DNA from: Tridacna crocea
Taxonomy: Eukaryota; Mollusca; Bivalvia; Cardiida; Cardiidae
DNA: 64,000 nucleotides
Assembly (NCBI GenBank): GCA_943736015.1
Contig: OX031059.1
Location: 53,269,159-53,333,158, forward strand
Reading direction: 5' to 3'
Shown here: one piece after another, positions 2,223-61,150 of the stretch
Layout: each line of letters starts with the position of its first letter
How positions within the stretch are numbered: position 1 is the first letter of the stretch
The notes under the pieces: generated by a model
Database searches by the model: none
The model's input: only the letters and a program-made list of their open reading frames with translations
Told to the model about the DNA's origin: nothing
Position numbers and translations under genes: made by a program

Positions 2223-2446
2223 CCCTTTACCAAACAATCCCTGGTTTTACGACCCTGAGATAGAGGCCTCTTGAAAACATTGTGGGAAAAGGAGAAAATG
2301 CTGGTAACCAGCATTTTCTCCTTTTCCCACAATGTTTTCTACCCTGCTGGAAACAAATTTCAATTTTTGAATTACGTTTATTTTGTTGTCTGCAAGTGCT
2401 TTCAATTTGGACCAGTCTAAAATTTTGTCGTTTGGTAAAGAGTTAA
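2219..2446 (+). mobile_element. PalA copy, intact reference
   Basis: This is a clean 228-bp copy bounded by TTAA on both sides, with ends CCCTTTACCAAAC and GTTTGGTAAAGAG. The 67-bp palindrome lies at 2273-2339 with a GGTAACC centre. The long arm carries GTCTGCAAGTGCTTTC. Confidence 0.93.
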
Positions 2447-2629
2447 ACCATTGAAGGATTCGTAGACCACCAGTTGTGTAGCTTAGCGAACAAAAATGAC
2501 AAAAAATCATAGATTTATTTCCCCTTCTCTGTAGCAGTCTTACCTTCCCAAAACTGTGTTTCTATCTAAAACAATCAACTGAGATGAAGGCTGTAAGGAA
2601 TTGGACTTCCTCACCTCCATCGTATCTGA

Positions 2630-2757
2630 CCGTTAAAAACGTGGGGAAAAACAGAAACTGCTGGTTACTCGCATTTTCTCCGTTTCCCCACAATGTTTTC
2701 TAAATGCTATACTTTCTTTGGGTGGTCAAAAGTAGGGATTGTGTGGTAATGAGTTAA
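2630..2757 (-). mobile_element. PalA copy, left arm lost
   Basis: A diverged palindrome (GGGGAAAAACAGAAACTGC) is followed by a normal short arm ending GTGGTAATGAGTTAA. The final TTAA is shared with the following fragment. Confidence 0.65.
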
Positions 2758-2935
2758 CTATTCACCAAACGACAAAAATGTAGAATTGTTCAAATTGAAA
2801 GCAGTTGCAGACGACATTCAAATATGGCTTAAATGATGGAATTTGTCTTTGATAATGTGAAAAACATTGTGTAAAAAGGGAGAAACTGCTGTTTTCAAAA
2901 GGCTTCTTGCTCAAAGTCGTTTAAAATCGTTATTA
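2754..2935 (-). mobile_element. PalA copy with palindrome deletion
   Basis: A full long arm (ACCAAACGACAAAAATG) is followed by the left palindrome arm, which jumps from GAGAAACTGCTG straight to GTTTTCAAAAGGCTTC. One arm of the palindrome is cleanly missing. Confidence 0.7.
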
Positions 2936-3109
2936 ATTGTAGGTGATTGGTCTGATTGGCCTCTCTGCAGCGAAATTCGTTTTCTTAAGGTATTATGAAT
3001 AGTCAGAAATATAAAACATGAAACAGAATGTGAAGAATACGCTCAATCCTTTTATTACAATACAAGATAAAAAAACAACTTAGATTTGAAAGCGTGTAAA
3101 GACGCCGCA

Positions 3110-3240
3110 TTTAATTTGACTCCAGAAACTTGATGAACAATTCACAGAGAGGAAAACATGGAGGGAAAAGTAGAAAATGCTGGTATCTAGCATCTCTTTC
3201 TTTTCCCACATTTTTTTTAAACGTATTTATTTTACATGAA
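3110..3240. mobile_element. PalA remnant
   Basis: An eroded core (GAAAATGCTGGTATCTAGC) with weakly recognisable arms remains. Confidence 0.4.
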
Positions 3241-3327
3241 ATTGAGTTCTCAAAAGGTATTACAACGTCTCCTAAATCTCTTTCGATTCTACTTCCTGGG
3301 AACTACACCAGTACTCGCGCCGAATGT

Positions 3328-3436
3328 GTGGGCCAATGAAAAATCCAAAAGTTGCCATCTGCTCCCGGGTATCGAGCTCTGTACCTTATGGTTACGACAC
3401 CGACGCTCTATCTCACTGCCACGGACACCACAATGT
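3328..3436 (-). mobile_element. tRNA-derived SINE, head region
   Basis: Read on the minus strand this has a B-box-like segment (AGCTCGATACCCGGGAGC) and an A-box-like segment (GTGAGATAGAGCG). It is closely related to the copy at 41740-41885. Confidence 0.6.
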
Positions 3437-3490
3437 TTCGAAAGCATTCCCTCCCCGCGTCATTTACACTCTCGGTTGTTTGGTAAAGGT

Positions 3491-3719
3491 TTAACCCTTT
3501 ACCCCATAAGACATTTCTATGGTATCTCTAATTGACCCTAAATAACAGCAAGGATGAAGCTGTTTCTCATGTGTATATGACACCTTTTGATAGCATAGAA
3601 AACATTGTGGCAAAAGGTGAAATTGCTCGTTACGAGCAATTTCACCTTTTGCCACAATGTTTTCCAAAGGCTCCTACAAGCAATGCATAGAAATGAGTAT
3701 ATGTGGAGTAAAGGGTTAA
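3491..3719 (-). mobile_element. PalA, A3 subfamily, intact
   Basis: TTAA flanks both sides. The long arm has CCCCATAAGACATTTC and the short arm GGCTCCTACAAGCAATGC. The core is GTGGCAAAAGGTGAAATTGC with a CGTTACG centre, which carries four mirrored changes relative to the canonical core. A remnant of another copy's GTTTGGTAAAGG end precedes it. Confidence 0.92.
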
Positions 3720-4099
3720 AAACTTGGTATAACCAGTAAAACGGCGATAAAACGTTTAATATATACCTGTAAAACTGCAATTAATAATGTTGAAATTTTC
3801 AATTTTTAGGGGTTTGGGTGGGAAAATATGATAATAGCTTCTCTTGCTTTCATCCGAACATAATAACCTTTCTGGTTTTATTACTCACAATGATAAATCG
3901 GTTTATTTTGAGGCTCTCTTTGATACAGATCACTTTAAGAAAGTTTGTTGTTTGGGAAAATCCGCCAATTGTAAACGGTGGCATACAAGTTCGTTTACAA
4001 TATTTCTGAAGGTCATTGGAAATGTTTGCTGAACTTTTGATAGGCCTAACGATAGGGCAACCTAACGCTTCTAACTGCACCATGGAATAAAATTTCTTA

Positions 4100-4556
4100 T
4101 TTCATTCAGGCTTTCCAGTAGTATATCGAGAAATAGCAGTGAAAATATTTTTCGATCTTACACTGGTACCGCCAGTGAAAATACTGATTTTCACGTTCTT
4201 GTTGCCGAGGTAAACTGCGCGTGCCTCACAAGTAGATGGGAAATATGACGTCATATACCTAACAATTCTCGCGCTTAGCGTAATATTGTAATGCGTTGCT
4301 ATGCGGGAGGGGTACACCACGGGATATAACGGAAAATAATTGTACTGACTTTTGATAAAGCTGCTCCCAGATAGGATTAAAAGCATGAAATAAATAGAAT
4401 ATTTGTTTTTGTTTTCCGGTGAAAGTTTGAAATTTATTTCATCTCGTGAATACCATTGGTAATATTTTCACTCGTGGCTGAACCACTCGTGAAAATATTA
4501 CCGATGGTATTCACTCGATGAAATGAATTTCGATCTTTCACCGAAAAAACATTATC
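4100..4556 (+). mobile_element. PalE copy, about 457 bp
   Basis: This is copy 1 of a three-copy family (others at 17822 and 50351). It runs from the TTTCATTCAGGCTTTCC region to an inverted-repeat module (TCGTGAATACC, ATTTTCACTCGTG and mirrors) ending in ATTTCGATCTTTCACCG. It contains TGACGTCA and GTTGCTATG. Confidence 0.75.
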
Positions 4557-4775
4557 CTCTTTATATTTTATTTCATGTGTCTATCTTTAGACATTTTATG
4601 GGTAAAGAAATGTCGTAATTTAAGCTGGAGAAATTATTTCCCTGTCACAGTGAATATTTTCCTTCTGCCGAAAATCTGGAACTACTTTTTTGTTCTACTT
4701 TGTTAGAACTTGAGATCACTATTTTTAAAAAAAGGCATTCGTTTACAAAATAATCAGAGGAAATATAATATATAA

Positions 4776-4935
4776 TTTATTTCATAGCTTGTTGTTAATA
4801 TGGGGAAATATTTGCCTCAAAAGGGAAAGGTCTGCGAAAATAACTTGTGCCATACACCACTCGTTATTTTCGCATACCTTTCCCTTTTTCGGCAAATATT
4901 TCCCCATATTAACAACCACAAGCTGATGAAATAAA
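4776..4935. mobile_element. inverted-repeat element, single copy
   Basis: Arms of about 65 bp (for example AATATGGGGAAATATTTGCC and its mirror) are separated by about 30 bp. The ends read ATTTATTTCAT and ATGAAATAAA, similar to PalE ends, so it may be a related foldback element. Confidence 0.65.
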
Positions 4936-4970
4936 CTCTATTTGTTAGTTGATAAATATGGATTTATATT

Positions 4971-5172
4971 CAGAGCTCCAGATAAGAGGGAGCGATGCTA
5001 TTCTAAAGTCATTATTTCTCTTCAAAACCCTATGTTGTGGGTTCTCATTAGAATCGTCTCAATGAGACGATTCTAATGAGTACCCACAACATAGGGTTTG
5101 GTAGAGAAGAACTCTTATTTTCTTTTTTTTTCAATTTTGAAATCAAAATCACTCCCTCTATTTGGATATCTG
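4971..5172. mobile_element. PalC copy
   Basis: The left flank is CAGAGCTCCAGATAAG. The central palindrome (5026-5099) includes CCCTATGTTGTGGG and TCATTAGAATCGTCTC. The right flank ends CACTCCCTCTATTTGG, a diverged mirror of the left end. Confidence 0.8.
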
Positions 5173-5400
5173 TATATAGATATAATACTTTTGCACATTT
5201 TTAACCGACCAGAAATTCCTTTCGATGTCTATCTTGAAATTATTTGTTGATCCTTTTGTTAGTGTCATGAAAAGGGAGGTAATTGTCATCTCCCTTTGTA
5301 ATGAGAATATAATGGTTTTAGATTTATAAATGATAATTCTAAAAAGGAAAAAAACGGGCTCTGTTAAATTAGTACAATAATACTCATTCTTAATCATAGC
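5173..5400 (+). repeat. dispersed 240-bp repeat, copy 1
   Basis: The segment with AACCGACCAGAAATTCC, GATGTCTATCTTGAAA and GGGAGGTAATTGTCATC recurs in the same order at 38618-38850 and inverted at 8895-9155. Element class is unknown. Confidence 0.7.
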
Positions 5401-5805
5401 AAATTTTGTAGGATAATATTAGAATCATAGTGGAGAAATCTGTTTTCCATTAGGAAAAATGGTGGTTTAAAAAAATGATTGCTCCCTTTCTTATGTGCAC
5501 AGATAAAGAACAAGGTAGGCCCAAAAGGAACAACCATTGAAAATTGGCATGTACTTCCTTGTAGATTTTTACACATTCCTGTTATTATGAAATATCCAGG
5601 CAATTTCAAATTGTTGATTGTAGAACGAAATCTCTCACTATTTCTTAATTCAGGGTAATTAAATGACTGCATTGAAAAAGAAGATGAGAGTGTTGCCCAA
5701 GATTAGCCTGCACGAATTTGCAGGCCTTGGTCCTCACGCACCTCACTGTACATCCATGTTCACCGCTCGCAGAGTATTGATTAAAACAGAGCCATTGTTT
5801 CCCAC
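5400..5805. other. stretch without recognised gene
   Basis: I see no gene. A short GC-richer patch near 5705-5745 (TAGCCTGCACGAATTTGCAG) resembles a worn PalF palindrome. Confidence 0.4.
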
Positions 5806-5807
5806 CT

Positions 5808-6032
5808 TTAACCCATTACCACACAATCCCTACTTTTGACGCCCTTGAGAAGCCTTTAGAAAATATTGTGGGAAAAGGAGAAAATGCTGGTAACCAGCAT
5901 TTTCTCCTTTTCCCACAATGTTTTCTACCCTTCACAAAACAAATTTTAAATTTTCAGTTACTTTTATGTTGTCGTCTGCAAATGATTTCAATTTGGACCA
6001 GTCTAAAATATTGTCATTTGGTAATGGGTTAT
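5808..6032 (+). mobile_element. PalA copy, nearly intact
   Basis: It begins TTAACCCATTACCACAC. A perfect palindrome with GGTAACC centre is followed by a long arm with GTCGTCTGCAAATG, ending GGTAATGGGTTAT. One base of the right TTAA is changed. Confidence 0.9.
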
Positions 6033-6235
6033 GATGCAACAAAATGTTGCAATCGTATTTAGCGTCATTGTATAATGACATTGCAATATGACACACAGAA
6101 CAAAGTTTCCCAGGGATGAAAGTACGCAAGGTATTTAGACAGTATGCCCCGGTGTGAAACAACATGGTTTCGTCTTTTTTTTTATGTCAATCTTAACTCC
6201 AGTATCTTGTCACTTCGGGATAAATTGCTATTGAT

Positions 6236-6465
6236 CCTTCACCATCCAATACAATATCGTTTTTAACGACCCTGGGTAAAATGCCATTTAAAAGCACTGT
6301 AGGAAAAGGAGAAAATGCTGGTAACCATCATTTTCTCCTTTTCCCATTTCCCACAATGTCTTCTACCTCTGCAAAGATACCTTTTATTATTTGAGCAATG
6401 CTGTACAGTATTTCTCGTCTGCGAATAGAATATTAAGTTTGAATTGTGCCGTTCTGTAAAAATGG
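6236..6465 (+). mobile_element. PalA copy, degraded
   Basis: The core (6293-6370) is readable but has mismatches and an internal CCCATTTCCCAC duplication. Arms are weakly preserved and ends are approximate. Confidence 0.55.
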
Positions 6466-6902
6466 AATGCATTTCACATAACGTCAAGGGTCTTGGGTTT
6501 TTTTTTTTTGTTTGTTTTATTTGAGCCACGCTCTGGCAAAAGGGGGCTTAAACATCAAGTCAACCACCTTGAAATACGTAATAAAAAAGGTGTAAAACAG
6601 AAAGATTATTATTGTCAATATAAAATTCATAATCTACATAGAAACTAGGAGCCTCGACAATTCGTACCAGGACAATTGGTATCGAAAATTCGTACCCAAG
6701 ACAACTCATACATAGGACAAAAAAAAAAGGGGTACGAAAAGGGCATTAAGGTAAATATTTCTTTTCTTTCCGTCAAATTGTCCTTTTGTTTCGTGGAACA
6801 ATGTTATCGGCACGCAAAGAGAAATCTAAAACCTTTTATCTATTCTTCCCACGAATTCAAGCTATGCGTATTTTCACCTTTATTCTGCTGTACAAGTTAA
6901 AC

Positions 6903-9586: not shown

Positions 9587-9814
9587 TTAACCCTTTACCC
9601 CATAAGGCATTTCTATGGTATCTGTAATTGACCCTAAAAACAGCAAGGATGAAGCTGTTTCTTATATGTATATGACACCTTTCGATAGCATAGAAAAGAT
9701 TGTGGCAAAATGTAAAATTGCTCGCCATGAGCAATTTCACCTTTTGCCACAATGTTTTCCAAAGGCTGCTACAAGTAATGCGTAGAAATGAGTATCTATG
9801 AAGTAAAGGGTTAA
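9587..9814 (-). mobile_element. PalA, A3 subfamily
   Basis: TTAACCCTTTACCCCATAAG starts it and GAAGTAAAGGGTTAA ends it. The core has GTGGCAAAATGTAAAATTGC on the left and an intact right arm, so this copy has unpaired decay (AGGTGAAAT became ATGTAAAAT on one side). Confidence 0.9.
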
Positions 9815-11408: not shown

Positions 11409-11645
11409 TTAATTCTTTACCACACAATCCTTACTTTTGACGACCCTGAGAAAGAAGCCTTTAGAAAACATAGTCTTTAGAAAACATTGTGGGAAAGGGA
11501 GAAAATGCTGGTAACCAGCATTTTCTCCCTTTCCCACAATGTTTTCTACCATTCACAAAACAAATTATATAGTTTCAGCCACTTTTATTTTGTCGTCTGC
11601 AAATATTAGACAAATCTAAAATTGTGTCGTTTGGTAATGAGTTAA
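11409..11645 (+). mobile_element. PalA copy with mirrored substitution
   Basis: TTAA at both ends. The core reads GGGAAAGGGAGAAAATG on the left and CATTTTCTCCCTTTCCC on the right, a paired A:T to G:C change. A short TTTAGAAAACAT duplication precedes the palindrome. Confidence 0.92.
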
Positions 11646-11649: not shown

Positions 11650-12580
11650 AATTGTCGACGTCCAGTAGTATTCAAATATTGCGAAATAAGACCCTTTCTT
11701 CTATGTTGAAACGGTGTATTGTTCTCGTTTGAAGAAGTGTTTGTTTTGGTTCGAACAAAGGAAAAACAATTTAAGACTCACTATTTCTGTCCCTCGTCTG
11801 CCTGTTTATAACTAATTCATTGCCGAATGAACAATGTAGGAAGGTTGTGAAATACTTTGATATTCGATTTGATTTGATTTGAAATAAAGGAGGACTTTCA
11901 GCTATCCTTTATACCCAGAGGTCGTCATTTTAGAGAAAGGATCAGACTTCAACTGTTTTCAATCAATCAATGCTTTACCAGGACCAAGTTCAAAAGACCT
12001 GTGGGTGTCAACTTATAAGAAAAGTGACCTTAGATAGATTTAAGTTTGAGGGCAAGATAAAAACACAGAAAAGATTGAGAGTCACTATCGTGAGGCCTTG
12101 CAAGCCTTGGTCGTACTAACACAAAGTCTACAAAAAAACAACAACACCTTATTTTGTTCTTAAAACTTGACAAACCCAAGGACAACAGGATGAAATACAG
12201 GAAAATACTGTTTTCAAGTTGGCTCTACATAATGTACTACGACCCAAGTCTTCATGTCATTTCGCCTAGCATGTCCAACAAGTTTCAAATGTCGCGCTCT
12301 TGATAGCAGAACATCACATTCTTTGCGGAAGACCTCTCAGATCGCGTCACGCGCTTTCTGCGCACTTATCAAGTTCTCATTACCCCTTTGCGATCTTGCA
12401 AATTTGGACCTACGCACACCGTGGTGTCATTCGTTTTGCAAGATTTGTTGGAAGAACAGTGCAATCTTCTCCGTCCGTATCAGGTTTGGACCACGACAGC
12501 GAAGACCATATGAGGTTCATGACACGTTGGACTGCGCATGCGTCAATGTCTTTGTTCGCATGTCCTTACTGGGTCTTTAC
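11650..12580. other. gene-free stretch with a GC-richer patch
   Basis: I cannot assign a gene. About 12250-12600 is richer in GC and open in two overlapping + frames (115 and 94 codons). The minus strand reads with two stops. It may be a worn coding fossil, but I recognise no domain. Confidence 0.35.
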
Positions 12581-12584
12581 CTGA

Positions 12585-12700
12585 AGAAGGAAAGCTTTTG
12601 AAAGAAAAAAAAAAATAGTAGGAAAAGGAGAAAATGCTGGTTACCAGCATTTTCTCCTTGTCCTACAATGTTTTCTACCCTAGCAAAGACAGAAATCATC
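12585..12700 (+). mobile_element. PalA copy, ends lost, core flipped
   Basis: The core at about 12613-12676 is GTAGGAAAAGGAGAAAATGC with a GGTTACC centre, though the flanks (AGCTTTTGAAAG left, CTACCCTAGCAAAG right) have + orientation. Outer arms are eroded. Confidence 0.65.
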
Positions 12701-12943
12701 ACTTGAAAAAAAAAAGATTTGTTTGGTTGTACATACTTTTATTGAGTTGAGAAAAAAAAAATGTTTTGCAACGATTTAACATGTTTTTCAAAATTTACCC
12801 ACGTCAGGCAAGACCACAGAGATCACATTATATCTTCAACAATTTCGTTTACGTTCCTCCTACGTCGTACGATTTCGTTCCGCGGTAGGCAGAATGATGT
12901 ACCTTGGGGTTGGACAATATTATAGGCCTTAGGAATAAATAGA

Positions 12944-13619: not shown

Positions 13620-13848
13620 ATTCACCCAATACCACACTATCCCTACTTTTGACGACCCTGAGAAAGAAGCCTTTAGAAAACATTGTGGGAAAAGGAGAAA
13701 ATGCTGGTAACCAGCATTTTCTCCTTTTCCCACAATGTTTTCTACCCTGCTGGAAACACATTTTAGTTTTTTAGTTAATGTATTTGTTGTCTCAAAGTGC
13801 TTTTAAATTTGTACCTGTCTAAAATTTTGTCGTTTGGTAAAAGTTTAA
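13620..13848 (+). mobile_element. PalA copy, intact core
   Basis: Short arm CACTATCCCTACTTTTGACG, perfect palindrome with GGTAACC centre, long arm ending GTCGTTTGGTAAAAGTTTAA. The left TTAA is mutated to TTCA. Confidence 0.88.
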
Positions 13849-15504: not shown

Positions 15505-15733
15505 TTAACCCATTACCACACAATCCCTACTTTTGACGCCCCTGAGAAAGAAGCCTTTTGAAAACACTGTGGGAAAAGGAGAAAATGCTGGTAACCAGCA
15601 TTTTCTCCTTTTTCCACAGTGTTTTCTACCCTTCCCAGAACGAATTTCAATCTTTCAGTCACCTTTATTTTGTCGTCTGCAAATGCTTTCATTTTGGACC
15701 AGTCTAAAATTTTGTTGTGTTGTAAAGAGTTAA
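15505..15733 (+). mobile_element. PalA copy with mirrored ACACTG/CAGTGT change
   Basis: TTAA on both sides. The core starts GAAAACACTGTGGG and ends CCACAGTGTTTTC, so the T:A to C:G change is present in both arms. Long arm GTCGTCTGCAAATGC, end GTAAAGAGTTAA. Confidence 0.92.
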
Positions 15734-21624: not shown

Positions 21625-21830
21625 TTTACTCTTAGCTTGTCTCACTGACCTTTTACGGACAGTGTAGATCAAGATCTGACTGCACAGAACGTGCCGTCAG
21701 ATCTTTAATCTACAATATCCGTTAAGGAGATATTTGCCCTCAGAAGTAGCATTGAAAAAGCAAAATTTGGATTTTTACTGTCGATTTGAAAGTTTCTGTC
21801 GGTTTAAAAAGTTTCATTTAATTTAGTTAA
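21625..21830 (+). mobile_element. PalB copy adjoining PalA
   Basis: CTCTTAGCTTGTCTCACTG left part, palindrome with GATCTGACTGCACAG and mirror GCCGTCAGATC (a paired A to T change), right part GAAAAAGCAAAATTTGG, ending at the TTAA shared with PalA at 21827. Confidence 0.72.
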
Positions 21831-22104
21831 CTCTTTACAAAACGACAATATTTTAGTCTTGTCCAAATTGAAAGCTTTTGCAGACGGCAAAATCAAAGTG
21901 ACTGAAAATTTGAAATTTATTTGAAGGGTGGAAAACATTGTGGGAAAAGGAGGAAATGCTGGTAAGCAGCATTTTCGCCTTTTCCCACAATGTTTTCTAC
22001 TCTACTGGAAACAAATTTAACTTTTTGAGTTATGTTTATTTTGTCCTCTGCAAGTGCTTTCAATTTGGACCATTCTAAAATTTTGTCGTTTTGGCAAGGG
22101 TTAA
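21827..22104. mobile_element. PalA chimera with two long arms
   Basis: Both sides are long arms: left ACAAAACGACAATATTTTAG with GCAGACGGC, right GTCCTCTGCAAGTGC with ATTTTGTCGTTTTGG. The whole 278 bp is one palindrome instead of the usual long/short pair. Core GGAGGAAATGC / GCATTTTCGCC. TTAA at both ends. Confidence 0.85.
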
Positions 22105-22133
22105 AAATGGGATTGTTTGGTAAAGGGTTTACC
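22105..22133 (-). mobile_element. PalA short-arm stub
   Basis: GGGATTGTTTGGTAAAGGGTT follows directly after the chimera's TTAA, as if the chimera had landed in the TTAA of another copy's short arm. The rest of that copy is not seen upstream. Confidence 0.6.
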
Positions 22134-26483: not shown

Positions 26484-26711
26484 TTAACCCTTTCCTAAAC
26501 AAGCCCTGGTTTTTACGTGTCTGCAGTACAAGTCTTTTGAAAGCACTGTGGGAAAAGGAGAAATTGTTCGTAACGAGCAATTTCTCCTTTTCCCACAGTG
26601 TTTTCTGCCCGTTCGGATAATTTTTTGCCATTGTTATGCAAGTTAAAGTTGTCGACGGCAAACTTTTTCAGTTCGGAAGAGTCTAAAATTTATCGTTTGG
26701 GAAAGGGTTAA
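26484..26711 (+). mobile_element. PalA, A2 core, intact
   Basis: TTAA both ends. Core GCACTGTGGGAAAAGGAG, TTGTTCGTAACGAGCAA, mirror to CCCACAGTGTTTTC. It carries the two mirrored A2 changes plus the mirrored ACTG change. The long arm is a distinct variant (GTCGACGGCAAAC). Confidence 0.9.
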
Positions 26712-27007: not shown

Positions 27008-27430
27008 TCAGAGCCCCAGTTAACCCTTTACTCCACAGATACTCATTTCTACACGTTGCTTGCAGGAGCCTTTGGAAAACATTGTGGCAAAAGGTGAAAT
27101 TGCTCGTAACGAGCAATTTCACCTTTTGTCACAATGTTTTCTATGCTATCTAATGTTTTCTATGTACACATTAGAAACTGTTTCATCCTTGCTGTTATTT
27201 AGGTACAATTAGAGATACAATAGAAATGCCCTATCGGGTAAAGGGTTAAGAGGGGATGGTGGATTTCTAAATACATTATTTCTCTTGGAAACCCTATGTT
27301 GTGGGTACTCATCAGAATCGTCTCGATGAGACGATTCTAATGAGTGCCCACAACATAGGGATTAGTGGAGAATAATTGATATTTTCAATTTTGAAAGCAA
27401 AATCTATCCTTCTACTTGCGCTCTGTTTTC
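27008..27430. mobile_element. PalC copy interrupted by PalA
   Basis: PalC starts CAGAGCCCCAG, is broken by PalA (27020-27249) and resumes GAGGGGATGG. Its palindrome (near 27290-27362) has a mirrored-position mismatch in TCATCAGAATCG. The right part ends near 27430. Confidence 0.82.
27020..27249 (+). mobile_element. PalA, A3 subfamily, nested in PalC
   Basis: TTAA duplicated at 27020-27023 and 27246-27249. Short arm CTCCACAGATACTCATTTC, core GTGGCAAAAGGTGAAATTGC with CGTAACG centre. The long arm contains a small extra ATGTTTTCTATG duplication. Confidence 0.92.
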
Positions 27431-28108: not shown

Positions 28109-28333
28109 TTAAACTCTTTGCCACAGATTTTGGACATATCCAAATTGAAAGCAATTGCAGTGGACAATTTCGTAATGGTTCACATAACACAATTTTCCTT
28201 TGATAGGGTAGAAAACTTTGTGGGAAAAAGGAGAAAATACTGGTTACCAGCATTTTCTCCTTTTCCCACAAAGTTTTCAAAAGGCTCCTTCCTCAGGGTC
28301 GTCAAAAGTCGTCATTGTGTGATACAGGGTTAA
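28109..28333 (-). mobile_element. PalA copy with mirrored CTTTG/CAAAG change
   Basis: TTAA both ends. Core GAAAACTTTGTGGG and CCCACAAAGTTTTC share the paired A:T to T:A change. Long-arm variant with GTGGACAATTTCGTAATGG and CTTTGATAGGG. Confidence 0.9.
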
Positions 28334-29059: not shown

Positions 29060-29268
29060 ACCTCAACTTTGCAAGCTTCGTTTGGCCAATGCTTTGCCAT
29101 CAATAGTTTAATTTTCAGTCAACATTTAGGATGTTTCGTCTTAGTTGTAACCAGTTCCAACTAGGCAATTTTGGCAAAAGAACAGCTTTTTGGAAAGGGA
29201 CCATATTTCATCAGAAGCATTTGCTGGATAGCCCACACTGTTTCCATTTGGTTTCGAATTTCTTATCT
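29060..29268. other. short spacer
   Basis: Nothing recognised. Confidence 0.5.
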
Positions 29269-29269
29269 C

Positions 29270-29498
29270 CTAACCTTTTCCCAAACGACAAATTTTGGAT
29301 TCTTCCACATCAAAAGAGTTTGCACACGACAATTTTTAGATTTGGAGAAAATGGCAGTAAGTTCTCAAAAGGGGTAGAAAACACTGTGGGAAAAGGAGAA
29401 ATTGCTCGTCACGAGCAATTTCTCCTTTTTCCACAGTGTTTTCAAAAGACTTTTACTGCAGACACGTAAAAACCCGGGCTTGTTTGGGAAATGGTTAA
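29270..29498 (-). mobile_element. PalA, A2 core, intact
   Basis: CTAACCTTTTCCCAAACG start, core GAAAACACTGTGGG with GAGAAATTGCTCGTCACG and mirrors, short arm AAAACCCGGGCTTGTTTGGG, right TTAA. The partner orientation is at 26484. Confidence 0.9.
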
Positions 29499-32542: not shown

Positions 32543-32799
32543 GTTCTGGTAAAAGGGGGGCTAAATGCATCTCCTTTAATACATGATACCAAGCAAGTCT
32601 TTACTGTATTATGGATCCGTAAAGTCTAGTTTGTACAACGATCGAAGGAATCATGGGATACACAGATCCTGTGAGTTGCAGAAAATTGCAAACTGTTAAA
32701 AAGAGCAAAAAGTATCGAGCCAAATAAGCCTGCGCGAACTGTGCAGGCTGATTTGCCTCGATACTTTTTGTAAATTAGCATTTTGATTTCTTTGATTAA
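32543..32799 (-). mobile_element. PalF copy
   Basis: CTGGTAAAAGGGGGGC start, ATTATGGATCCG, palindrome GCCAAATAAGCCTGCGCG / GTGCAGGCTGATTTGCC, ending in TTTTTGTAAATTAGC. PalA follows at TTAA 32796. Confidence 0.72.
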
Positions 32800-33024
32800 C
32801 CCTTTACCTCATATGCCAATTTGAGGCTCTTCCATTTCAGCAGCAAATAAAGATATGATGTCAAAAATATGGACAAATGAGGATACAAAGATCTGACTGA
32901 GTGGAAAACATCGTGGGAAAAGGAGAAATTGCTCGTTACGAGCAATTTCTCCTTTTCCCGCAATGTTTTCAAAAGCTGTCAGTTGTTTTACGTCAAAATG
33001 AGTATCTGTGGAGTTAAGGGTTAA
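32796..33024 (-). mobile_element. PalA, A2 core, variant arms
   Basis: TTAA both ends. Core GTGGGAAAAGGAGAAATTGC with CGTTACG centre. The arms differ from canonical (ATATGCCAATTTGAGGC, CGTCAAAATGAGTATCTG) and match, inverted, the copy at 40945. The right TTAA is shared with the next copy. Confidence 0.9.
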
Positions 33025-33360: not shown

Positions 33361-34684
33361 GCATAATAGACCGATCGCTATGCACAGGCAACTATGCCAA
33401 AATAACACTGTATTTCATACAGGTATATAGTAGGCCGACAGCTATACACAGGCAATCATGCCAAAACAACACTGTATTTCATACAGGTGTATATAAGGCC
33501 GACCGCTGTGCACAGGCAACTATGCCAAAATAACACTGTATTTCATACAGGTATATAGTAGGCCGACAGCTATACACAGGCAATCATGCCAAAACAACAC
33601 TGTATTTCATACAGGTGTATATAAGGCCGACCGCTGTGCACAGGCAACTATGCCAAAATAACACTGTATTTCATACAGGTATATAGTAGGCCGACCGCTA
33701 TTCACAGGCAATCATGTCAAAAGAACACTGTATTTTATACAGGTATATAGTAGGCCGACAGTTATTCACAGGCAATCATTCCAAAACAACACTGTATTTC
33801 ATACAGGTATATACTGTAGTAGGCCGACAGCTATGCACAGGCAATCATGCCAAAACAACACTGTATTTCATACAGGTACATAGTAGGCCAAAACAACGCT
33901 GTATTTCATACAGGTATATAGTAGGCCGACAGCTAAGCGCAGACAGTCATGCCAAAACAATACTGTATTTCATACATGTATATATACTAGGCCGACAGCT
34001 GTGCACAGGCAATCATGCCAAAACAACGCTGGCTGTATTTCATACAGGTATATAGTAGGCCGACAGCTATGCGCAGGCAATCATGCCAAAACAACACTAT
34101 ATTTCATACAGGTATATAGTAGGCCTACAGCTGTGCATAGGCAATCATGCCAATACAACACTGTATTTCATACAGGTATATGTAATAGGCCGACAGCTGT
34201 GCACAGGCAATCATGCCAAAACAACACTGTATTTCATACAGGTATATAGTATACCGACAGCTATCCGCAGGCAATCATGCCAAAACAACACTGTATTTCA
34301 TACATATATATAGAAGGCCGACCGCTATTCACAGGCAATCATACCAAAACAACACTGTATTTCATACATATATATAGAAGGCCGACAGCTATTCACAGGC
34401 AATCATACCAAAACAACACTGTATTTCATAAAGATATACAGTAGGCCGACAGCTATGCACAGGCAGTCATGCCAAAACAACACTGTATTTCATACAGATA
34501 TATAGTAGGCCGACCAATATGCACGGGCAGTCATGCCAAAATAACACTGTATTTCATACAGCTATATAGTAGGCCGACCAATATGCACGGGCAGTCATGC
34601 CAAAATAACACTGTATTTCATACAGCTATATAGTAGGCCGACCAATATGCACGGGCAGTCATGCCAATACAACACTGTATTTCA
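33361..34684 (+). repeat. 64-bp tandem satellite, about 21 units
   Basis: Each unit carries CACTGTATTTCATACAGG, TATATAGTAGGCCGAC and CACAGGCAATCATGCC. Spacing between ATTTCATAC words at 33410, 33474, 33538, 33602 and 33666 is exactly 64. The first five units alternate two variants, giving a 128-bp higher-order period. Later units have small insertions or deletions (near 33825 and 33885). Three near-identical units end the array. Confidence 0.95.
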
Positions 34685-40769: not shown

Positions 40770-41200
40770 CTCAAATCATTCTCAACAACATCTCTTGTCT
40801 TATTCGCCAATATTTTCACCATTCGAAAGTAACACAACTTCTGATTGGTTAAACCATACGGTTTAGCCAATCAGATGTTATGATACTTTTTAAATTTAGA
40901 AAGTTCTGGAGAATAAGACTGAGAGCGCTCCTAAGAATGGTTGGTTAACTCTATTACTCCATAATTACTCATTTTGACGCATCAACAACAGACAGCTTTT
41001 GAAACACATTGTGGGAAAAGGAGAAATTGCTCGTAACGAGCAATTTCTCCTTTTCCCACAATGTTTTTCACTCAATCAGATAATTGTTTCCCCATTTGTC
41101 AATGATTTTGCCATCATAATTATGTTTATTTGCTGCTGAATTGAGGGAGCCTAAAATTGGAATATGAGGTAAAAGGTTAATACGAGGTTGGCGCTTTGCT
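40770..41200. mobile_element. PalD copy interrupted by PalA
   Basis: TCGAAAGTAACACAACTTC, CTGATTGGTTAAACC and mirror, then GAATAAGACTGAG and AAGAATGGTTGG. PalA sits at TTAA (40945), and PalD resumes as TACGAGG after 41180. Confidence 0.78.
40945..41180 (+). mobile_element. PalA, A2 core, nested in PalD
   Basis: TTAA at both ends. Core ACATTGTGGGAAAAGGAG, GAAATTGCTCGTAACGAGC and mirror. The arms are the same variant as 32796 but inverted (ATAATTACTCATTTTGACG, CCTAAAATTGGAATATGAGG). Confidence 0.9.
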
Positions 41201-43334: not shown

Positions 43335-43754
43335 TGAAACTCTTTACAAACCAACAAACGGTTTTAGACTTCAGTGTAACTGAAATTTTGATGTTTATCG
43401 TACAGTGGAAAACATTGTGGGAAAAAAAGAGAAAATGCTGGTTACCCGCATTTTCTCTTTTTCTCACAATGTTTTCAAGAGGTGTCTTCCCCAGGGTGTT
43501 AACCCTTTACCCCATAAGTCATTTCTATGGTATCTCTAATTGACCCTAAATAAGAGCAAGGATGAAGCCGTTTCTTTTGTGTATATGACACCTTTTGATA
43601 CAGTAGAAAACATTGTGGCAAAAGGTGAAATTGCTCGTCACGAGCAATTTCACCTTTTGCCACAATGTTTTCCAAAGGCTGCTTCAAGCAATACGTAGAA
43701 ATGAGTATCTATGGAGTAAAGGGTTAAAAGACAGGATTGTTTTGTACAGGGATA
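43335..43754 (-). mobile_element. PalA copy interrupted by another PalA
   Basis: Starts TGAAACTCTTTACAAACC; core GTGGGAAAAAAAGAG with GGTTACC centre. The short arm CCCCAGGGTG is broken at TTAA by the A3 copy and resumes AAGACAGGATTGTTTTG. Confidence 0.85.
43499..43727 (-). mobile_element. PalA, A3 subfamily, nested in PalA
   Basis: TTAA at 43499-43502 and 43724-43727 is the duplicated target; the inserted body is 221 bp. Core GTGGCAAAAGGTGAAATTGC with CGTCACG centre, perfect mirror. Confidence 0.95.
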
Positions 43755-45670: not shown

Positions 45671-45673
45671 GGT

Positions 45674-45800
45674 GGCTTTTGAAAACATCGTGACGAAAGG
45701 AGAAAGTGCTCGAAACGAGCCATTTCTCCTTTCGGCACGATGCTTTAGTTTCAGTTCGTATTGAAAATGTTCTTTTTCGTCTTAGATATGCTTACGGGTT
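45674..45800 (+). mobile_element. PalA variant copy with multiple mirrored changes
   Basis: ACATCGTGACGAAAGGAG and CTCCTTTCGGCACGATG pair, sharing ATCG/CGAT and CG/CG changes absent from canonical cores. Centre CTCGAAACGAG. The right arm is a divergent long arm (TTTTTCGTCTTAGATATGC); the left arm is lost. Confidence 0.7.
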
Positions 45801-46692: not shown

Positions 46693-46925
46693 CCCCCCCC
46701 CCCCCTACCCTTTAGTAATATATAATACTTATTCTTGTCTGAAATATATCATGAAAGAAGACTGTGAAGAGTCGGTTGGTTGGTTGGTCAGCTGGTCTGA
46801 TTTTATGTCAACACGGAGTCTCTAGTCAAGATAGATTAATTTAGTGATAATATTTGTAATATAGTAGACAAGAAAACCCGTATCTGTCATCAGTCGGTCT
46901 GATCTGATGTTAATGGTTTTAGTTA

Positions 46926-47160
46926 TTGACCCTTTTCCACACAGCAGAATTACAGACCTATCCAAATCGAAAACATTTGCAGATAAAAATTTCCTAGTGG
47001 CCCAAATGATTCAATTTTTCTTTGATAGAGAAAAAAAAAAACTTCGTGGGAAAAAAGGAGAAAATGCTGGTTACCAGCATTTTCTCCTTTTCCCACAAAG
47101 TTTTCAGAAGGCTTCTTTCTCAGGGTTGTTAAAAGTTGGCATTGTGTGGTAGAGGGTTAA
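46926..47160 (-). mobile_element. PalA copy, CAAAG variant
   Basis: TTGACCCTTTTCCACAC start, variant arm AAATTTCCTAGTGGCCC and CTTTGATAG, core ACTTCGTGGG / CCCACAAAGTTTTC, TTAA end. Confidence 0.88.
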
Positions 47161-54394: not shown

Positions 54395-54620
54395 TTAACC
54401 CTTTACCACACAATGGCGACTATTAACGTCCCTGAGGAAGAGGCCTTTGAAACTTTATGGGAAAAGGAGAAAATGCTGGTAGCCAGCATTTTCTCCTTTT
54501 CCCACAAAGTTTTCTTCTCTATCGAAGAAAAATTGCATCATTTGAGACCCTATATTATCGCCTACATATGCTTTTATTTTGGATATAGGTCTAAAATTCT
54601 TCTGTGTGGTAAAGGGTTAA
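54395..54620 (+). mobile_element. PalA copy, CAAAG variant
   Basis: TTAACCCTTTACCACAC, core GAAACTTTATGGG / CCCACAAAGTTTTC, centre CTGGTAGCCAG, worn long arm, end GTGTGGTAAAGGGTTAA shared with the next copy. Confidence 0.88.
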
Positions 54621-55151: not shown

Positions 55152-55373
55152 TTAACCCTTTACCCCATAAGGCATTTCTATGGTATCTCTAATTGACCGT
55201 AAATAACAGCAAGGATGAAGCCATGTGTATATGATACCTTTTGATAGCATAGAAAACATTGTGACAAAAGGTGAAATTGCTCGTCACGAGCAATTTCACC
55301 TTTTGCCACAATGTTTTCCAAAGGCTCCTACAAGTAATGCGTAGAAATAACTATCTATGGAGTAAAGGGTTAA
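55152..55373 (-). mobile_element. PalA, A3 subfamily
   Basis: TTAA both ends; CCCCATAAGGCATTTC long arm, core GTGACAAAAGGTGAAATTGC / GCAATTTCACCTTTTGCCAC with CGTCACG centre. A small deletion in the long arm after GATGAAGCC. Confidence 0.93.
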
Positions 55374-55463: not shown

Positions 55464-55497
<34 letters not shown>

Positions 55498-56345: not shown

Positions 56346-56411
56346 CAATGTATATTCAGTTTTTGACAAAGGCGCATGTCATTTCATCTTTCTTAATTTC
56401 ACGGACGATAT

Positions 56412-56590: not shown

Positions 56591-56883
56591 CTAACTTGTC
56601 CAATTCTTAATGAAAGGAAAACAACTTCAAACTAAGAGTAAAAACGCGGATGAAGATTATATTCCATTGAATAACTCACTCATTGAATGACGTCACTCTA
56701 CATGGATTGTCGCAGATTTTACCACGTTTTCCTTGCACTGTGTTTATAGAGCCAAAGTCGCGTGTCATGTTAGAATAGTTTTTCTACGCAAGGAAATTAT
56801 AGTCAAAAACAATTATCCATGGCTTCTCGAGTGTCAATTGCAGCATACGCAGACAGGAAATAAAAAAGTACCAAAATATTGCG
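56591..56883. other. spacer
   Basis: No gene recognised; contains AATGACGTCACTC near 56688. Confidence 0.4.
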
Positions 56884-56885
56884 TT

Positions 56886-57114
56886 TTAACCCTTTACTCC
56901 ACAGATACTCATTTCTACGCATTGCTTGTAGGAGCCTTTGGAAAACATTGTGACAAAAGGTGAAATTGCTCGTGACGAGCAATTTCACCTTTTGCCACAA
57001 TGTTTTCTATGCTATCAAAAGGTGTCATATTCACATAAGAAACAGCTTCATCCTTGCTGTTATTTAGGGTCAATTAGAGATACAAAAGAAATGCCTTATG
57101 GGGTAAAGGGTTAA
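56886..57114 (+). mobile_element. PalA, A3 subfamily, upstream of XKR gene
   Basis: TTAA both ends; CTCCACAGATACTCATTTC short arm, core GTGACAAAAGGTGAAATTGC with CGTGACG centre, long arm ending GCCTTATGGGGTAAAGGG. It lies 430 bp before the XKR start. Confidence 0.93.
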
Positions 57115-57144
57115 CCTAAAAACGCCTGACACAACAATTTTTGC

Positions 57145-57184
57145 CTTTGCGAGCAGTGTATGTCAACATCAGACTTCATGTTTT
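57145..57184. mobile_element. PalB half palindrome
   Basis: AGTGTATGTCAACATCAGAC with decay; joined to a PalA short arm. Confidence 0.4.
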
Positions 57185-57253
57185 ACACAAGGTTTTCAAA
57201 AGGTTTCTTTCTCTGGGTCGTTAATATTTGGGATTTTGGCGGCAAATGGTTAA
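57185..57253 (-). mobile_element. PalA short-arm fragment
   Basis: AAGGTTTTCAAAAGGTTTC, GGGTCGTTAATATTTGGG and AAATGGTTAAG; no palindrome. Confidence 0.65.
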
Positions 57254-57424
57254 GTGCGAAAATCAATAGTAATAAAGCCTTTTGTTTATCATTTCAGACA
57301 CCGAACATCAACCGTAAGTGGGCAATAAAGACTCAGTGATAATGGTCAATACACCACAACGGCGTGAAAGTACTTTCCTGACCACTTATGACCGGTTTAT
57401 CCGATGATTTATGACATTCAAACA

Positions 57425-57439
57425 GAGAGAGAGAGAGAG
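57425..57439. repeat. (GA)n run upstream of the XKR start
   Basis: A pure GA dinucleotide run of about 15 bp lies 107 bp before the proposed start codon. It could be a 5' UTR or a proximal-promoter GAGA tract. No TATA box is obvious nearby. Confidence 0.6.
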
Positions 57440-57545
57440 CAACAGAAAACCACAAAGATGATGTGAGAGCGGTTTTTCGAAAGAAGACAATGTGGCTGTG
57501 ATATGCGTACTGTGTCAAAATCGTAAAAAGTTTGGTGTTTTTAAA

Positions 57546-59906
57546 ATGGCGACATCTTGTTTCGGAATCTCTCTGGTTGTGTCCTTGATGTTCTACCTCG
57601 GACAAATGGTCATGAACGGTGCTGTGGCTTACAGACTGTATTTTAACGACGGGATCAAGACTTGGTTCTTGCCTTATATAGGGCTACTTCTCATACCATT
57701 GGTTTTGATACAGCTTGTATCAGCTATCTTGTTTCTGTCAAAGAACGGAGATAAGCTGTCGGTGACGTCATGCATCCTGGTAGCCGTTTTACACGTCTTT
57801 CAACTCGGATTGATATGGAGGCATTTTACGACCTTTCGCCAGGTCGATCCAAAATGTCGGTCGAGAGAGTTGGCAGATTTCAACATTTTACAGCTTGTGC
57901 ATTTATTTACATCTATGCTACCATTGTTGTGCATACAGACATTCTTATTTTACCACCACGAAGTAGGAGAAATCATTTTATTAGTAACAGTGGCAGTAAC
58001 ACTGTTTGGAACCTGCTGGCATCTTTCAACGTATAGTGTCACAGACAATGACGTCATGATATGTGTAAGGATACTTGTAAAGTTCCTATGGCGCCTTGGG
58101 GAACTACTTTCACGAGTCATATCACTTACAGTTTTTGCATCCGTCTATCATTACTGGATATTTTTAATTGTTGGCCTACATGGAATAACGATGTTAGTCT
58201 GTCTTTGTACATCGATCATGGGAGTATTTGATAGCCGAGGTGGGTCAAGGTCACACAAAGTACAGTGGAGTTTAATGTTCTCATACATGTACTCATTCTG
58301 TTTTATTAACATTGCATCGCATTCCTCTGCATTTCGATATGCTTTGTTTTACATTATCATGTTTTTCGAAAACGTGGTCTTAACCGTGGTATGGTATATG
58401 CAGGTTGAAGAACCACATGGGTACATAAACAAGAACCTCGTGGCAGCTTTATCGGCAGGGTCTTTCATTATTTCGATGATATTTTTAGTAATCTATTACA
58501 AATCGTTCAGCTTAAAATATACCAGCGATGACGAAAGGGAACTCTGTAATGAGAAGTACTCCTGTATCAACTGCAAACTAAGCGTGTGTTCTAAGCATAA
58601 TTTAAAACTGCAGAGACCTTTCAGTGCCGGTTGGATGTCTCATTACCAGAAAGCGCTTGCCCATGGAAATTATTACAAAAACATCCTACATGACACATTA
58701 CTTGATTCTGATCGTGAATCTGTCCATGATATTTTGAATTCATCCGGAGAACATTGTCAGATACGCGACACTGATTTAGAGAGTATCCGAAACAGTGAGC
58801 GGAAATATACAAGTGTTCAGGGAACTGGAACTTACACACATAAGCGATTCTTCGATTCAGATCCTAATATCAAACAGTTAGCAGAAACTGATTCAATATC
58901 CGGCGGAAGTGGAATATATGACGATGATTGGAGGCATAAGCCAGACGCTTTATTGTCTCAGCTTACTGCACAAGATACCCTGAGCTTACTTAGCAGCAAA
59001 ACAAAACTGTTAACAGACAGTTGGGACGATCTGAAGAAAGAAAACGTCAGTCTCGACAAAGATCCGAAACACCCTAAATCACTGGATGTCCTGAACTCGT
59101 TGATAAAAAAAGATTTAGATTCTAGTTTTCTTTCAGACGGGTATACAACTGATTACACATTAGAAAGTTACCAGTTACCGGTCACAGTGTTGGCTAAAAG
59201 GCGTGCACGATTATTCCGACGACAGCCAGAACCGGCGTACTCGGTAACTTCGGATTCTACGGATTGCACAATATGTTCGTTTATTCGTAATAATCCGTCA
59301 AGTCCTGAATCCTCACGCCGGAAGTTCTCGGTCCACGAAGACATTCCTGAGGAAACGTACGCTGAAGTTCAAAAAAGGTGCAGGGATATAAGACATGAAA
59401 GACAAATGAAATATAAAAAATACAGGACTAGGTCAGCTGATTCACATCTAAGAAATGACAAACCGTACAGAGAAGTGATTAACTTAAATGATATTTATAG
59501 TAAACCGAAACGTAAAACAGAAAGGACTGTTCAAGTTGATGTCAAAGAACGACAGAAACTTCAAAACAAGACAATATCAAAAATACCAATTCCTACCTCA
59601 AAAAACTATAAATCAAATAATCATCAAGTGCCCTTAGTTGTCAAAGCACCTCCTGTTCCAGAAGATAAAGATACAACTAGAAGAGAACGTGCTTTAAACA
59701 AACTGCCAGAGTCTAATGTCATTAGCACGGCTCACAAACCACGTGACCTTGTATTCGTGTCACGTGTCAAGGAAACAACTCCATGCTATGCTAGTGATTC
59801 CGGTGATTCCGCTTTCCCGAGAAATACGCCGTTAAGCTCCTATTTGGCGGCAACGGACGATTATCAGGATGGCATCAGTGAATCGTCGGGTGAAATGATA
59901 ATATAG
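57546..59906 (+). CDS. XK-related (XKR/CED-8 family) membrane protein, 786 aa
   Basis: The protein is a multi-pass XK-family member. In animals this family includes plasma-membrane phospholipid scramblases (XKR4/8/9, nematode CED-8) that expose phosphatidylserine in dying cells; scramblase activity here is inferred. About ten hydrophobic segments lie at roughly residues 4-28, 38-65, 73-92, 114-136, 140-163, 176-200, 203-228, 239-259, 265-285 and 296-318. Family-like motifs are WHLSTY (158-163), FLWRLGELLSRVISL (180-194) and RYALFYIIMFFEN (264-276). The open frame extends upstream to a GTG at 57492, but the first ATG in frame is 57546, in good context (AAAATGG), so I start there. Residues 319-786 form a polar, Ser/Asp/Lys-rich tail, longer than in most vertebrate XKRs. 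It has a basic stretch (KRRARLFRRQ) and possible caspase-type DxxD sites (DSGD 751-754, DYQD 772-775). A (GA)n run lies at 57425-57439. No intron is visible inside; upstream exons cannot be excluded. The exact orthologue is undetermined. Confidence 0.9.
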   Translation: MATSCFGISLVVSLMFYLGQMVMNGAVAYRLYFNDGIKTWFLPYIGLLLIPLVLIQLVSAILFLSKNGDKLSVTSCILVAVLHVFQLGLIWRHFTTFRQVDPKCRSRELADFNILQLVHLFTSMLPLLCIQTFLFYHHEVGEIILLVTVAVTLFGTCWHLSTYSVTDNDVMICVRILVKFLWRLGELLSRVISLTVFASVYHYWIFLIVGLHGITMLVCLCTSIMGVFDSRGGSRSHKVQWSLMFSYMYSFCFINIASHSSAFRYALFYIIMFFENVVLTVVWYMQVEEPHGYINKNLVAALSAGSFIISMIFLVIYYKSFSLKYTSDDERELCNEKYSCINCKLSVCSKHNLKLQRPFSAGWMSHYQKALAHGNYYKNILHDTLLDSDRESVHDILNSSGEHCQIRDTDLESIRNSERKYTSVQGTGTYTHKRFFDSDPNIKQLAETDSISGGSGIYDDDWRHKPDALLSQLTAQDTLSLLSSKTKLLTDSWDDLKKENVSLDKDPKHPKSLDVLNSLIKKDLDSSFLSDGYTTDYTLESYQLPVTVLAKRRARLFRRQPEPAYSVTSDSTDCTICSFIRNNPSSPESSRRKFSVHEDIPEETYAEVQKRCRDIRHERQMKYKKYRTRSADSHLRNDKPYREVINLNDIYSKPKRKTERTVQVDVKERQKLQNKTISKIPIPTSKNYKSNNHQVPLVVKAPPVPEDKDTTRRERALNKLPESNVISTAHKPRDLVFVSRVKETTPCYASDSGDSAFPRNTPLSSYLAATDDYQDGISESSGEMII

Positions 59907-60015
59907 ATCTAGAATATTTGACGTGATCTGCGTAAAAATCTCTAACGGCTAAATCAAACACATGTGTGAAATGGTCAAACTGATTGTTGAATTTACCATC
60001 CGTGCCTCTTGGTGA

Positions 60016-60153
60016 TTAACTCTATCACACCATTCCGAATTTTGAAGCCTCTGAAAAAGAAGCCTTTTGAAAACATTGAGGGAAAAGGAGAAAATGCTGG
60101 TAATCAGCATTTTCTCAATTTCCATTAATGTTGTTTTTTACTCATTGGAGAGG
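60016..60153 (+). mobile_element. PalA copy beyond XKR stop, right arm cut
   Basis: TTAACTCTATCACACCATTC, core GAAAACATTGAGGG / CATTAATG with losses and GGTAATC centre. Right-arm homology stops near GGAGAGGTC at about 60154. Confidence 0.75.
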
Positions 60154-60702
60154 TCATCAGACCTCTCCAACAGTGTTGAGTTTAAAAGGCAGACTACCTC
60201 AGAAATTGCTGTCTAAATCCAATCTTTGTAGGGGAATTGTTCCGATACACAGTATGTTTCGTCATGATTTTATAAAGAAATCGAAGTCTAAAAACTGAAA
60301 TAGGAAATAGACGTGGTTTGTTTCTATATCGCGAATTTCAACAAAATTGTAAGGATTTATTTGCATATTCCCTTTCCAACAATTTTAATTTTGTATTACA
60401 ATCTTAAATCTAAACAAAAAGAAGAAAAAGAAAAAAGAATTTCGTTAAAAATAGAAACGAACACAGCGGAAAAAATCACGTGACCTTAAAACGCGGGAAG
60501 ATGGTCATGTGACTTACATAAATTACAAGGACGGATGATACGGAATCCTGTTTTTGCCATCCACTTTGATGAATGTGTATTTACAACTGAACAGATTTCA
60601 ACTACCCGTTTATTGTCTTGCTTGTTTCTTTATATGTACCTAGATATATTTAACCTAAAAGCATAAAAACTATTAGAAAATAATGATGTCGACCTCTCCT
60701 GG
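60154..60702. mobile_element. possible insert splitting a PalA copy
   Basis: Ends read GGAGAGGTC and GACCTCTCC. A PalA left part precedes and a PalA long arm follows at 60730, which would fit an insertion of about 550 bp. No clear target duplication was found. Confidence 0.35.
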
Positions 60703-60729
60703 CTTCTTTTTTAAAGAAGCCACTTGTCT

Positions 60730-60827
60730 TAAGTCAAGTTTCAATTTCTTGGTCACATTTATTTTGTCGTCTGCAAATGCACTAAATTCGGACAAGTCTA
60801 ATATTTTGTAGTTTGGTTAAGAGTTAA
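60730..60827 (+). mobile_element. PalA long arm (right part)
   Basis: TCAAGTTTCAATTTCTTGG, TTTATTTTGTCGTCTGC and TAGTTTGGTTAAGAGTTAA; could be the missing right end of 60016. Confidence 0.65.
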
Positions 60828-60921
60828 TTAATATCCTATTGATTTCGAGATTTCCGCCAAGTTTTTTAAATTACAATATTCTGACATGTTTCTAGACTTG
60901 TTCATGTTTTAGGCCCACATG

Positions 60922-61150
60922 TTAACCCATTGGCACACAATTCCTACTTTCACCGCCCCTGAGAAAGAAGCCTTTTGAAAACACTGCGGGAAAAGGAGAA
61001 AATGCTGGTAACCAGCATTTTCTCCTTTTCCCACAGTGTTTTCTACCCTTCCCAGAACCAATTTCAAGTTTTCAGTCACCTTTATTTTGTCATCTGCAAA
61101 TGCTTTCAATTGGAACCAGTCTAAAATTTTGTCGTGTGGTAAAGAGTTAA
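60922..61150 (+). mobile_element. PalA copy with mirrored ACACTG/CAGTGT change
   Basis: TTAACCCATTGGCACAC, core GAAAACACTGCGGG / CCCACAGTGTTTTC with GGTAACC centre, long arm with CATCTGCAAATGC, TTAA end. Same subgroup as 15505. Confidence 0.92.

Follow-up and report, generated by a model that had tools for sequence, protein, structure and literature searches.

Mirrored substitutions in PalA, the central palindrome of an abundant TTAA-flanked element of Tridacna crocea

When one arm of a DNA hairpin changes, what makes the other arm change with it? This question is raised by a stretch of 64,000 nucleotides from the bivalve Tridacna crocea (contig OX031059.1 of assembly GCA_943736015.1, positions 53,269,159 to 53,333,158 of the forward strand; hereafter, the window), in which a 67-bp palindrome, designated PalA, occurs repeatedly. 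A sequence-only reading of the window had noticed that substitutions in PalA often appear on both arms in mirror image, and proposed that either hairpin-templated repair copies one arm onto the other or pairing is selected, as in a structured RNA. Alignment of the window cores places all the mirrored changes in its list on both arms. The analysis described here points, with somewhat better than even confidence, to two sources of such changes, namely inheritance from master elements that carried perfect palindromes and template switching within the hairpins of resident copies at a low rate.

PalA comprises 33 base pairs around one base and forms the centre of a TTAA-flanked miniature inverted-repeat transposable element (MITE) of about 229 bp. 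Read from the left, the element begins with TTAA and a terminus of the form CCC(T/A)TTACC...; the 67-bp palindrome stands between a left arm of about 50 bp and a right arm of about 105 bp, and the element closes with a terminus ending in ...GGTAAAGGG and a second TTAA. The terminal inverted repeats are short, as in piggyBac-derived MITEs (CCCTTTACC.../...GGTAAAGGG), and the commonest ends are CCCATTACC and CCCTTTACY. Among 151 full copies, TTAA is present at the left end of 114, at the right end of 125 and at both ends of 97 (chance 0.11 and 0.26), in keeping with the target duplication of a piggyBac-derived MITE; the 97 copies with both have a median length of 229 bp. Within the ranges searched, the element measures 219-245 bp including both TTAA, a size that rules out coding for a transposase. 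piggyBac-type MITEs have a TTAA target and CCC... termini, and TTAA is also used by Kolobok elements. Judged by these features, the PalA MITE appears to be a non-autonomous TTAA (piggyBac-like) element, unlike other piggyBac-type MITEs in that its central palindrome is common to several arm families. The genome (1.05 Gb, 31 contigs) contains 118 matches to the piggyBac transposase domain (PF13843; e.g., at C18:19006660, C10:28376412, C18:30428954 and C3:66851558), many without stops and several intact, so a TTAA-type helper for the PalA MITE is plausible. Some groups of these matches score identically, which suggests recent activity. As for abundance, the exact inner 31-mer of PalA occurs 191,599 times in the genome (reversed control, 0) and has no exact match in the viral_contigs or genome_contigs databases. 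In 25 fixed-coordinate stretches of 10 kb, 202 cores were found and matches cover 20.4% of the sampled DNA, which extrapolates to about 0.85 million copies genome-wide, many of them decayed. A core with zero changes lies at 13674..13744 (+), a 71-nt hairpin made of the 67-bp core and flanking TA with a 1-nt centre and 33 of 33 pairs; as single-stranded DNA it folds at -39.1 kcal/mol (z -15.2 versus 200 shuffles).

Regarding the frequency of mirrored changes, 307 cores were collected from 338,248 bases, consisting of the window, the 25 fixed stretches and eight 3-kb loci that were picked via the exact inner core and favour young copies. The left arm and the mirrored right arm were aligned in common coordinates, p1-p33. 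Cores of the A2 and A3 subfamilies (39 of the 307) were set aside in a shuffle test in which right halves were permuted between copies similar in age (2000 shuffles). The younger A1 cores (n = 150, identity at least 60/66) contain 35 mirrored changes versus 10.1 in the shuffles. When p7 and p8 are left out, 21 remain versus 7.4, and when all six subfamily sites are left out, 13 versus 5.9, a number reached in 0.5% of the 2000 shuffles. One A3-like copy inside the A1 set, L018_733, supplies four changes to the count of 35, the same four to that of 21 and none to that of 13. With subfamily descent removed, the mirrored effect is real but modest. Genome-wide counts give the same direction. At pair 22 (G>A), there are 191,599 unchanged copies, 2,610 and 2,565 one-sided copies and 198 mirrored copies, for which independence predicts 34.9; at pair 28 (G>A), 3,116 and 3,078 copies are one-sided and 156 are mirrored, for which independence predicts 50.1. 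The non-mirrored control, 22-left with 28-right and its mirror image, gives 82 + 104 copies against 83.6 expected, and this 2.22-fold inflation is best read as an effect of unequal copy ages. Beyond the control, the net mirrored excess at pair 22 is 2.55-fold (CI 2.09-3.11). Relative to expectation, mirrored doubles exceed non-mirrored doubles, as template switching predicts, at the two fully counted sites, measured against one control pair. At pair 24 (A>G), 20 copies genome-wide are mirrored. Double mirrored changes, whose excess over expectation had been suggested as a check in the sequence-only reading, are in excess in both the age-stratified shuffles of younger cores and the genome-wide counts.

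The carriers of the mirrored pair-22 change were compared with one-sided and control copies for kinship and age. Each sample was taken from the top of its list, with 20 of the 198 mirrored-22 copies, 20 of the 5,175 one-sided-22 copies (18 after removal of L068 and L070, which repeat L067) and 20 of the 186 control doubles. L044 is counted as a separate copy, since it and L038 have different arms. L067, L068 and L070 (C1:2862932, 2884122 and 3484243) have identical core changes within 0.6 Mb and are probably a local duplicated repeat. The arms of the 20 mirrored-22 copies fall into many types. For the 17 with an arm score above 130, the median nearest-arm distance is 0.176 versus 0.156 for random copies; these carriers are no closer to one another than random copies, as expected of independent recurrence. 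Outside the fixed inner 31 bases, at p3-p18, the 20 mirrored-22 copies have only 23 other one-sided changes, compared with 46 in the 18 one-sided-22 copies and 47 in the 20 control doubles (binomial p 0.0016 and 0.0056, respectively). In this respect, they resemble ordinary young copies, such as the inner-exact sample with 83 one-sided changes in 73 copies. As chance double hits should sit in old copies with many changes, the cleanness of the mirrored-22 copies favours arm copying over chance. One copying event per element would give this pattern, and so would descent from numerous small founders that were already mirrored. Hairpin-templated copying of one arm from the other, the first of the two explanations originally offered, is thus supported at a low rate by the mirrored excess at two pairs and by the unrelated, cleaner carriers of pair 22.

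The mirrored changes seen in the window itself have mostly another origin. Core changes with at least three carriers were tested for kinship of the carriers' arms against random sets, using 195 of the 307 copies (score above 130). Mirrored G14C, A21T and A26T cluster by arm (p<0.005), as do T8C (p 0.0053) and G31C (p 0.011); A7T and G14A (mirrored, three carriers each) fall short of p 0.02. At p<0.02, five of the seven mirrored changes are linked to arms versus none of the 82 one-sided changes (Fisher p 5e-7); with at least eight carriers, the counts are 5/5 versus 0/18. The Fisher probability overstates the contrast, since the five variants are mutually linked (A3 has four of them) and represent about three founder lineages. 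This clustering of the carriers' arms implies that mirrored subfamily states are inherited. Arm-linked core changes are mirrored and inherited, and they account for most of the examples first listed. A2 cores differ by two mirrored changes (p26 A>T and p31 G>C), and A3 cores by four (p14 G>C, p21 A>T, p26 and p31), the same numbers as first read and seen on both arms. A2 copies mirrored at p26 and p31 lie at 40945..41195 (+, right end approximate) and 32796..33024 (-). A3 copies lie at 3491..3719 (-, mirrored at p14, 21, 26 and 31), 9587..9814 (-), 27020..27249 (+), 43499..43727 (-), 55152..55373 (-) and 56886..57114 (+); that at 9587 keeps 28 of 33 pairs, with p14, 26 and 31 mirrored and p21 T on both arms too. 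The ATTG>ACTG change is T8C on both arms of the MITEs at 15505..15733 (+, core 15560-15626) and 60922..61150 (+, core 60977-61043), which closely resemble each other and have similar right arms. It is also present in the A2 copies at 26484..26711 (+, core 26539-26605) and 29265..29498 (-, core 29377-29443, low end without TTAA), together with mirrored p26 and p31. As T8C is found on A1 and A2 cores alike, it arose twice or was exchanged. The ATTG>TTTG change is A7T on both arms of the MITE at 28109..28333 (-, core 28211-28278), and further copies with mirrored A7T are present at 46910..47160 (-, core 47037-47105) and 54395..54620 (+, core 54448-54514). Thus, most window examples (A2, A3, ATTG>ACTG and ATTG>TTTG) are shared subfamily states.

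The paired A to G and T to C change in the MITE at 11409..11645 (+, core 11480-11546) is A18G on both arms, and this is the sole such young copy in the sample. Partial copies have mirrored G19A at 43373..43498 (-, core 43408-43476) and mirrored G12A at 12580..12730 (+, core 12609-12675). The first-read start positions at 11409, 15505, 26484, 28109 and 60922 coincide with TTAA ends. A further example, given at 45674, holds in part. The diverged A2-like core at 45672..45748 (+, counted from 45681, arms unrecognised) is mirrored at p9, 14, 15 and 31; other pairs are broken, the arms having changed differently at p13 and p26 and on one side only at p1, 5, 27 and 33.

How these observations may fit together can be stated as follows. 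The founding elements of subfamilies carried perfect palindromes, so that the differences between subfamilies are mirrored and inherited, as their association with the arms shows. In a resident copy, a one-sided mutation would break a pair; if the strand then folded back in replication or repair, the polymerase could template one arm from the other, a molecular step that we infer, and the outcome would be either a reversion or a mirrored pair. If reversion is equally frequent, only a few percent of mismatches would be resolved per copy lifetime. The net mirrored share of variant copies is about 2% for pair 22 and 0.7% for pair 28. Copying in resident elements at this rate seems too slow to have made the masters perfect in the time that the arms of distant groups took to diverge by about a third, and a second factor is therefore invoked: amplification probably also requires perfect pairing, or else restores it.

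Several observations weigh against the two-source explanation. The genome-wide excess is set against a single non-mirrored control pair, which is its main weakness; the two counted sites also give unequal values, and at pair 28 the excess is weak, with a net value of 1.40-fold (CI 1.13-1.73). The older A1 cores (n = 118, identity below 60/66) have no mirrored excess (46 versus 41.4), and the mutual linkage of the arm-linked variants reduces the founder evidence to the few lineages mentioned above. Many small mirrored founders would look identical in 20 copies. Exchange through the core, described below, does occur, so the unrelated arms of mirrored carriers could mislead, and one mirrored core could have been spread into unrelated arms in this way. 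Spacer inversion is not seen, as the centre base is T in 4 of 20 mirrored-22 copies versus 3 of 18 one-sided-22 copies. A rise of centre T had been considered as an inversion signature from the comparison with the base sample (4/20 versus 8/169), and it disappears against the one-sided-22 copies. Intra-strand template switching, which retains the spacer, is a possible route. Extra mirrored pairs in the same copy, which copied tracts should leave behind, number 5 in the mirrored-22 sample and 2 and 5 in the controls (20, 18 and 20 copies), and this clustering is not significant (5:23 versus 2:46, p 0.09; versus 5:47, p 0.31). A second, unrelated palindromic repeat of about 93 bp, PalB, has 11 copies in the 338 kb, five of them in the window (sites around 5062, 7002, 17456 and 27326). 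In the 8 of its 11 copies compared, a number with little power, there is no mirrored excess (1 versus 3.3 expected).

Among the other explanations, selection on the pairing of masters stands closest, at somewhat less than an even chance, and it is compatible with the two-source explanation. Here, only intact hairpins would amplify, with pairing aiding transposition or element replication, and a lineage would persist only after compensation. The restriction of arm-linkage to mirrored variants agrees with this, as does the behaviour of the core: across pairs of the 195 copies, it diverges at 0.4-0.7 of the arm rate, and in 33 copies clustered by eye it differs from the subfamily consensus by 2.6% versus 6.9% and 7.7% in the arms. 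Strong protection of the core was considered and dropped, because the core/arm ratio lies in that range and is highest in the closest pairs. Such selection does not on its own make mirrored pairs appear in resident copies whose arms are unrelated, and about three lineages only stand behind it. Moreover, A<>T or G<>C flips account for five of the six founder sites, compared with 68 of 358 one-sided changes (p 0.001), and a flip requires a strong-mismatch intermediate; A7T is counted among these flips although its three carriers do not cluster significantly. Transitions dominate the one-sided changes, and the founder mirrored changes at p7, p14, p21, p26 and p31 are nearly all flips, an odd fact that none of the models considered clearly predicts. 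Less probable, though not negligible, is the explanation that each amplification passes through a single-stranded hairpin, with one arm serving as template for its partner; the masters would be re-made perfect, the core would evolve only in mirrored steps, and switching in resident copies would continue slowly.

Two further explanations are doubtful to a similar degree. In the first, a master acquired each mirrored change a single time and passed it on to all carriers, and the rest are coincident double hits. T8C and the A2 and A3 changes track arm subfamilies, the copies at 15505 and 60922 have both T8C and similar right arms, and the older copies have no mirrored excess. One founder per subfamily, which had been named at the outset as what would refute independent mirrored change, fits most window examples; it fails for the genome-wide counts, where mirrored pair 22 exceeds the non-mirrored control; the arms of its carriers are unrelated in the 17 compared, and these carriers have fewer other changes than the control doubles, where greater age would have given more. 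In the second explanation, conversion or recombination between copies via the common core spreads mirrored cores. Chimaeras exist: a single core at 21826..22112 is flanked on both sides by right arms of two different subfamilies and ends in TTAA, a left-left chimaera at L014 2414-2590 also ends in TTAA, and the copies 13676 and 18914 combine left and right arms from different clusters. Self-copying beyond the palindrome was considered for the left-left chimaera and rejected, as its arms are not mutual nearest (0.106 versus 0.038). In the arm-order survey, 224 of the 307 cores (identity at least 56) were taken, of which 54 were without one or both arm calls. The remaining 170 include 167 in the order left-core-right, one right-right, one left-left and one with an oddly turned left arm. 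Close right arms with far left arms occur in 13 of 316 pairs, and the arm-shuffling statistics are weak. Exchange between copies through the core happens but looks rare. The regularity of the 167 cores, the tight linkage of A3 cores to their own arms (mean distance 0.107 versus 0.27) and the retained orientation of the centre base (A 131, T 8 of 169 called) all speak against spreading by conversion.

The proposal that PalA represents two half-sites of a dimeric DNA-binding protein, e.g., a transposase, whose halves change jointly with protein specificity, is improbable: most founder changes are flips, not transitions, and A3 cores accompany their own arms, as this would have it, but mirrored events in resident copies are not predicted, and a usual operator is far shorter than 67 bp of symmetry. 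Selection for a structured RNA (a microRNA-like or siRNA hairpin), the second of the original proposals, is unsupported and very improbable in spite of the strong hairpin and the existence of microRNAs derived from MITEs, because one-sided G-T and A-C mismatches are equal on the sense strand of the element (104 versus 113 in 170 younger copies and 218 versus 200 in 105 older copies) where a structured RNA gene would be expected to tolerate G-U, the window has no Rfam match at gathering thresholds, and the roughly 0.85 million extrapolated copies are in many cases decayed.

Template switching, or quasipalindrome correction, is an established process that gives such a mirrored pattern (PMC8794818, PMC8604942; see also PMC3820800 and PMC7202029). 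As described by Monttinen & Loytynoja 2022 (PMC8794818) and Abraham & Hazkani-Covo 2021 (PMC8604942), one arm of an inverted repeat is made to match its partner, so that compensatory change comes about at once and without selection, and the changes in PalA are alike in this respect. The setting differs from the RNA and protein genes of those reports, as the PalA hairpins belong to MITEs, are interspersed in hundreds of thousands of copies and are probably neutral; unlike the inter-strand type of template switch, PalA shows no spacer inversion. PMC8794818 itself rates as circumstantial its best evidence that short RNA stems are maintained in this way. A similar element has been described from haemoglobin genes of Lucina pectinata, the MITE 'consensus sequence 1' of 210 bp with 30-bp imperfect terminal repeats and a 77-bp central palindrome at 96% identity (PMC4732748). 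Compared by description only, it is like the PalA MITE in size, terminal repeats and central palindrome, and the two may belong to the same family; its authors could not identify target duplications, and the section describing it gives neither copy number nor mirrored changes. Long perfect inverted repeats in animal DNA are also known from nematomorphs; there, the palindromes are reported to be mitochondrial and coding (PMC6649704), whereas PalA is nuclear and non-coding. Among the matches listed, no report of mirrored changes in MITEs was found in the open-licence literature.

Apart from PalA and PalB, the window contains a tandem array with a 64-bp unit at 33363-34684 and an 804-aa open frame at 57492-59906 that matches XK-related proteins, with its best named relatives in the bivalves Mactra antiquata (46% identity) and Mercenaria (44%) and an ENA protein that is 87% identical.

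Within the literature searched, two things are new here: the setting, a huge and probably neutral set of hairpins that allows mirrored changes to be counted and compared with a control, and the apparent restriction of subfamily masters to changes in mirrored pairs. Covariation is often taken as proof of selected pairing. The PalA hairpins have an excess of double changes without sign of RNA function, implying that part of covariation can stem from mutation itself. As one genome offers countable copies by the hundreds of thousands, it becomes possible to measure directly how often one arm is copied onto the other and over what tract length, and likewise the apparent rule of perfect-palindrome masters. 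If amplification is hairpin-templated, the genome of T. crocea would amount to a natural assay, replicated in nearly a million hairpins, of compensatory evolution free of selection.

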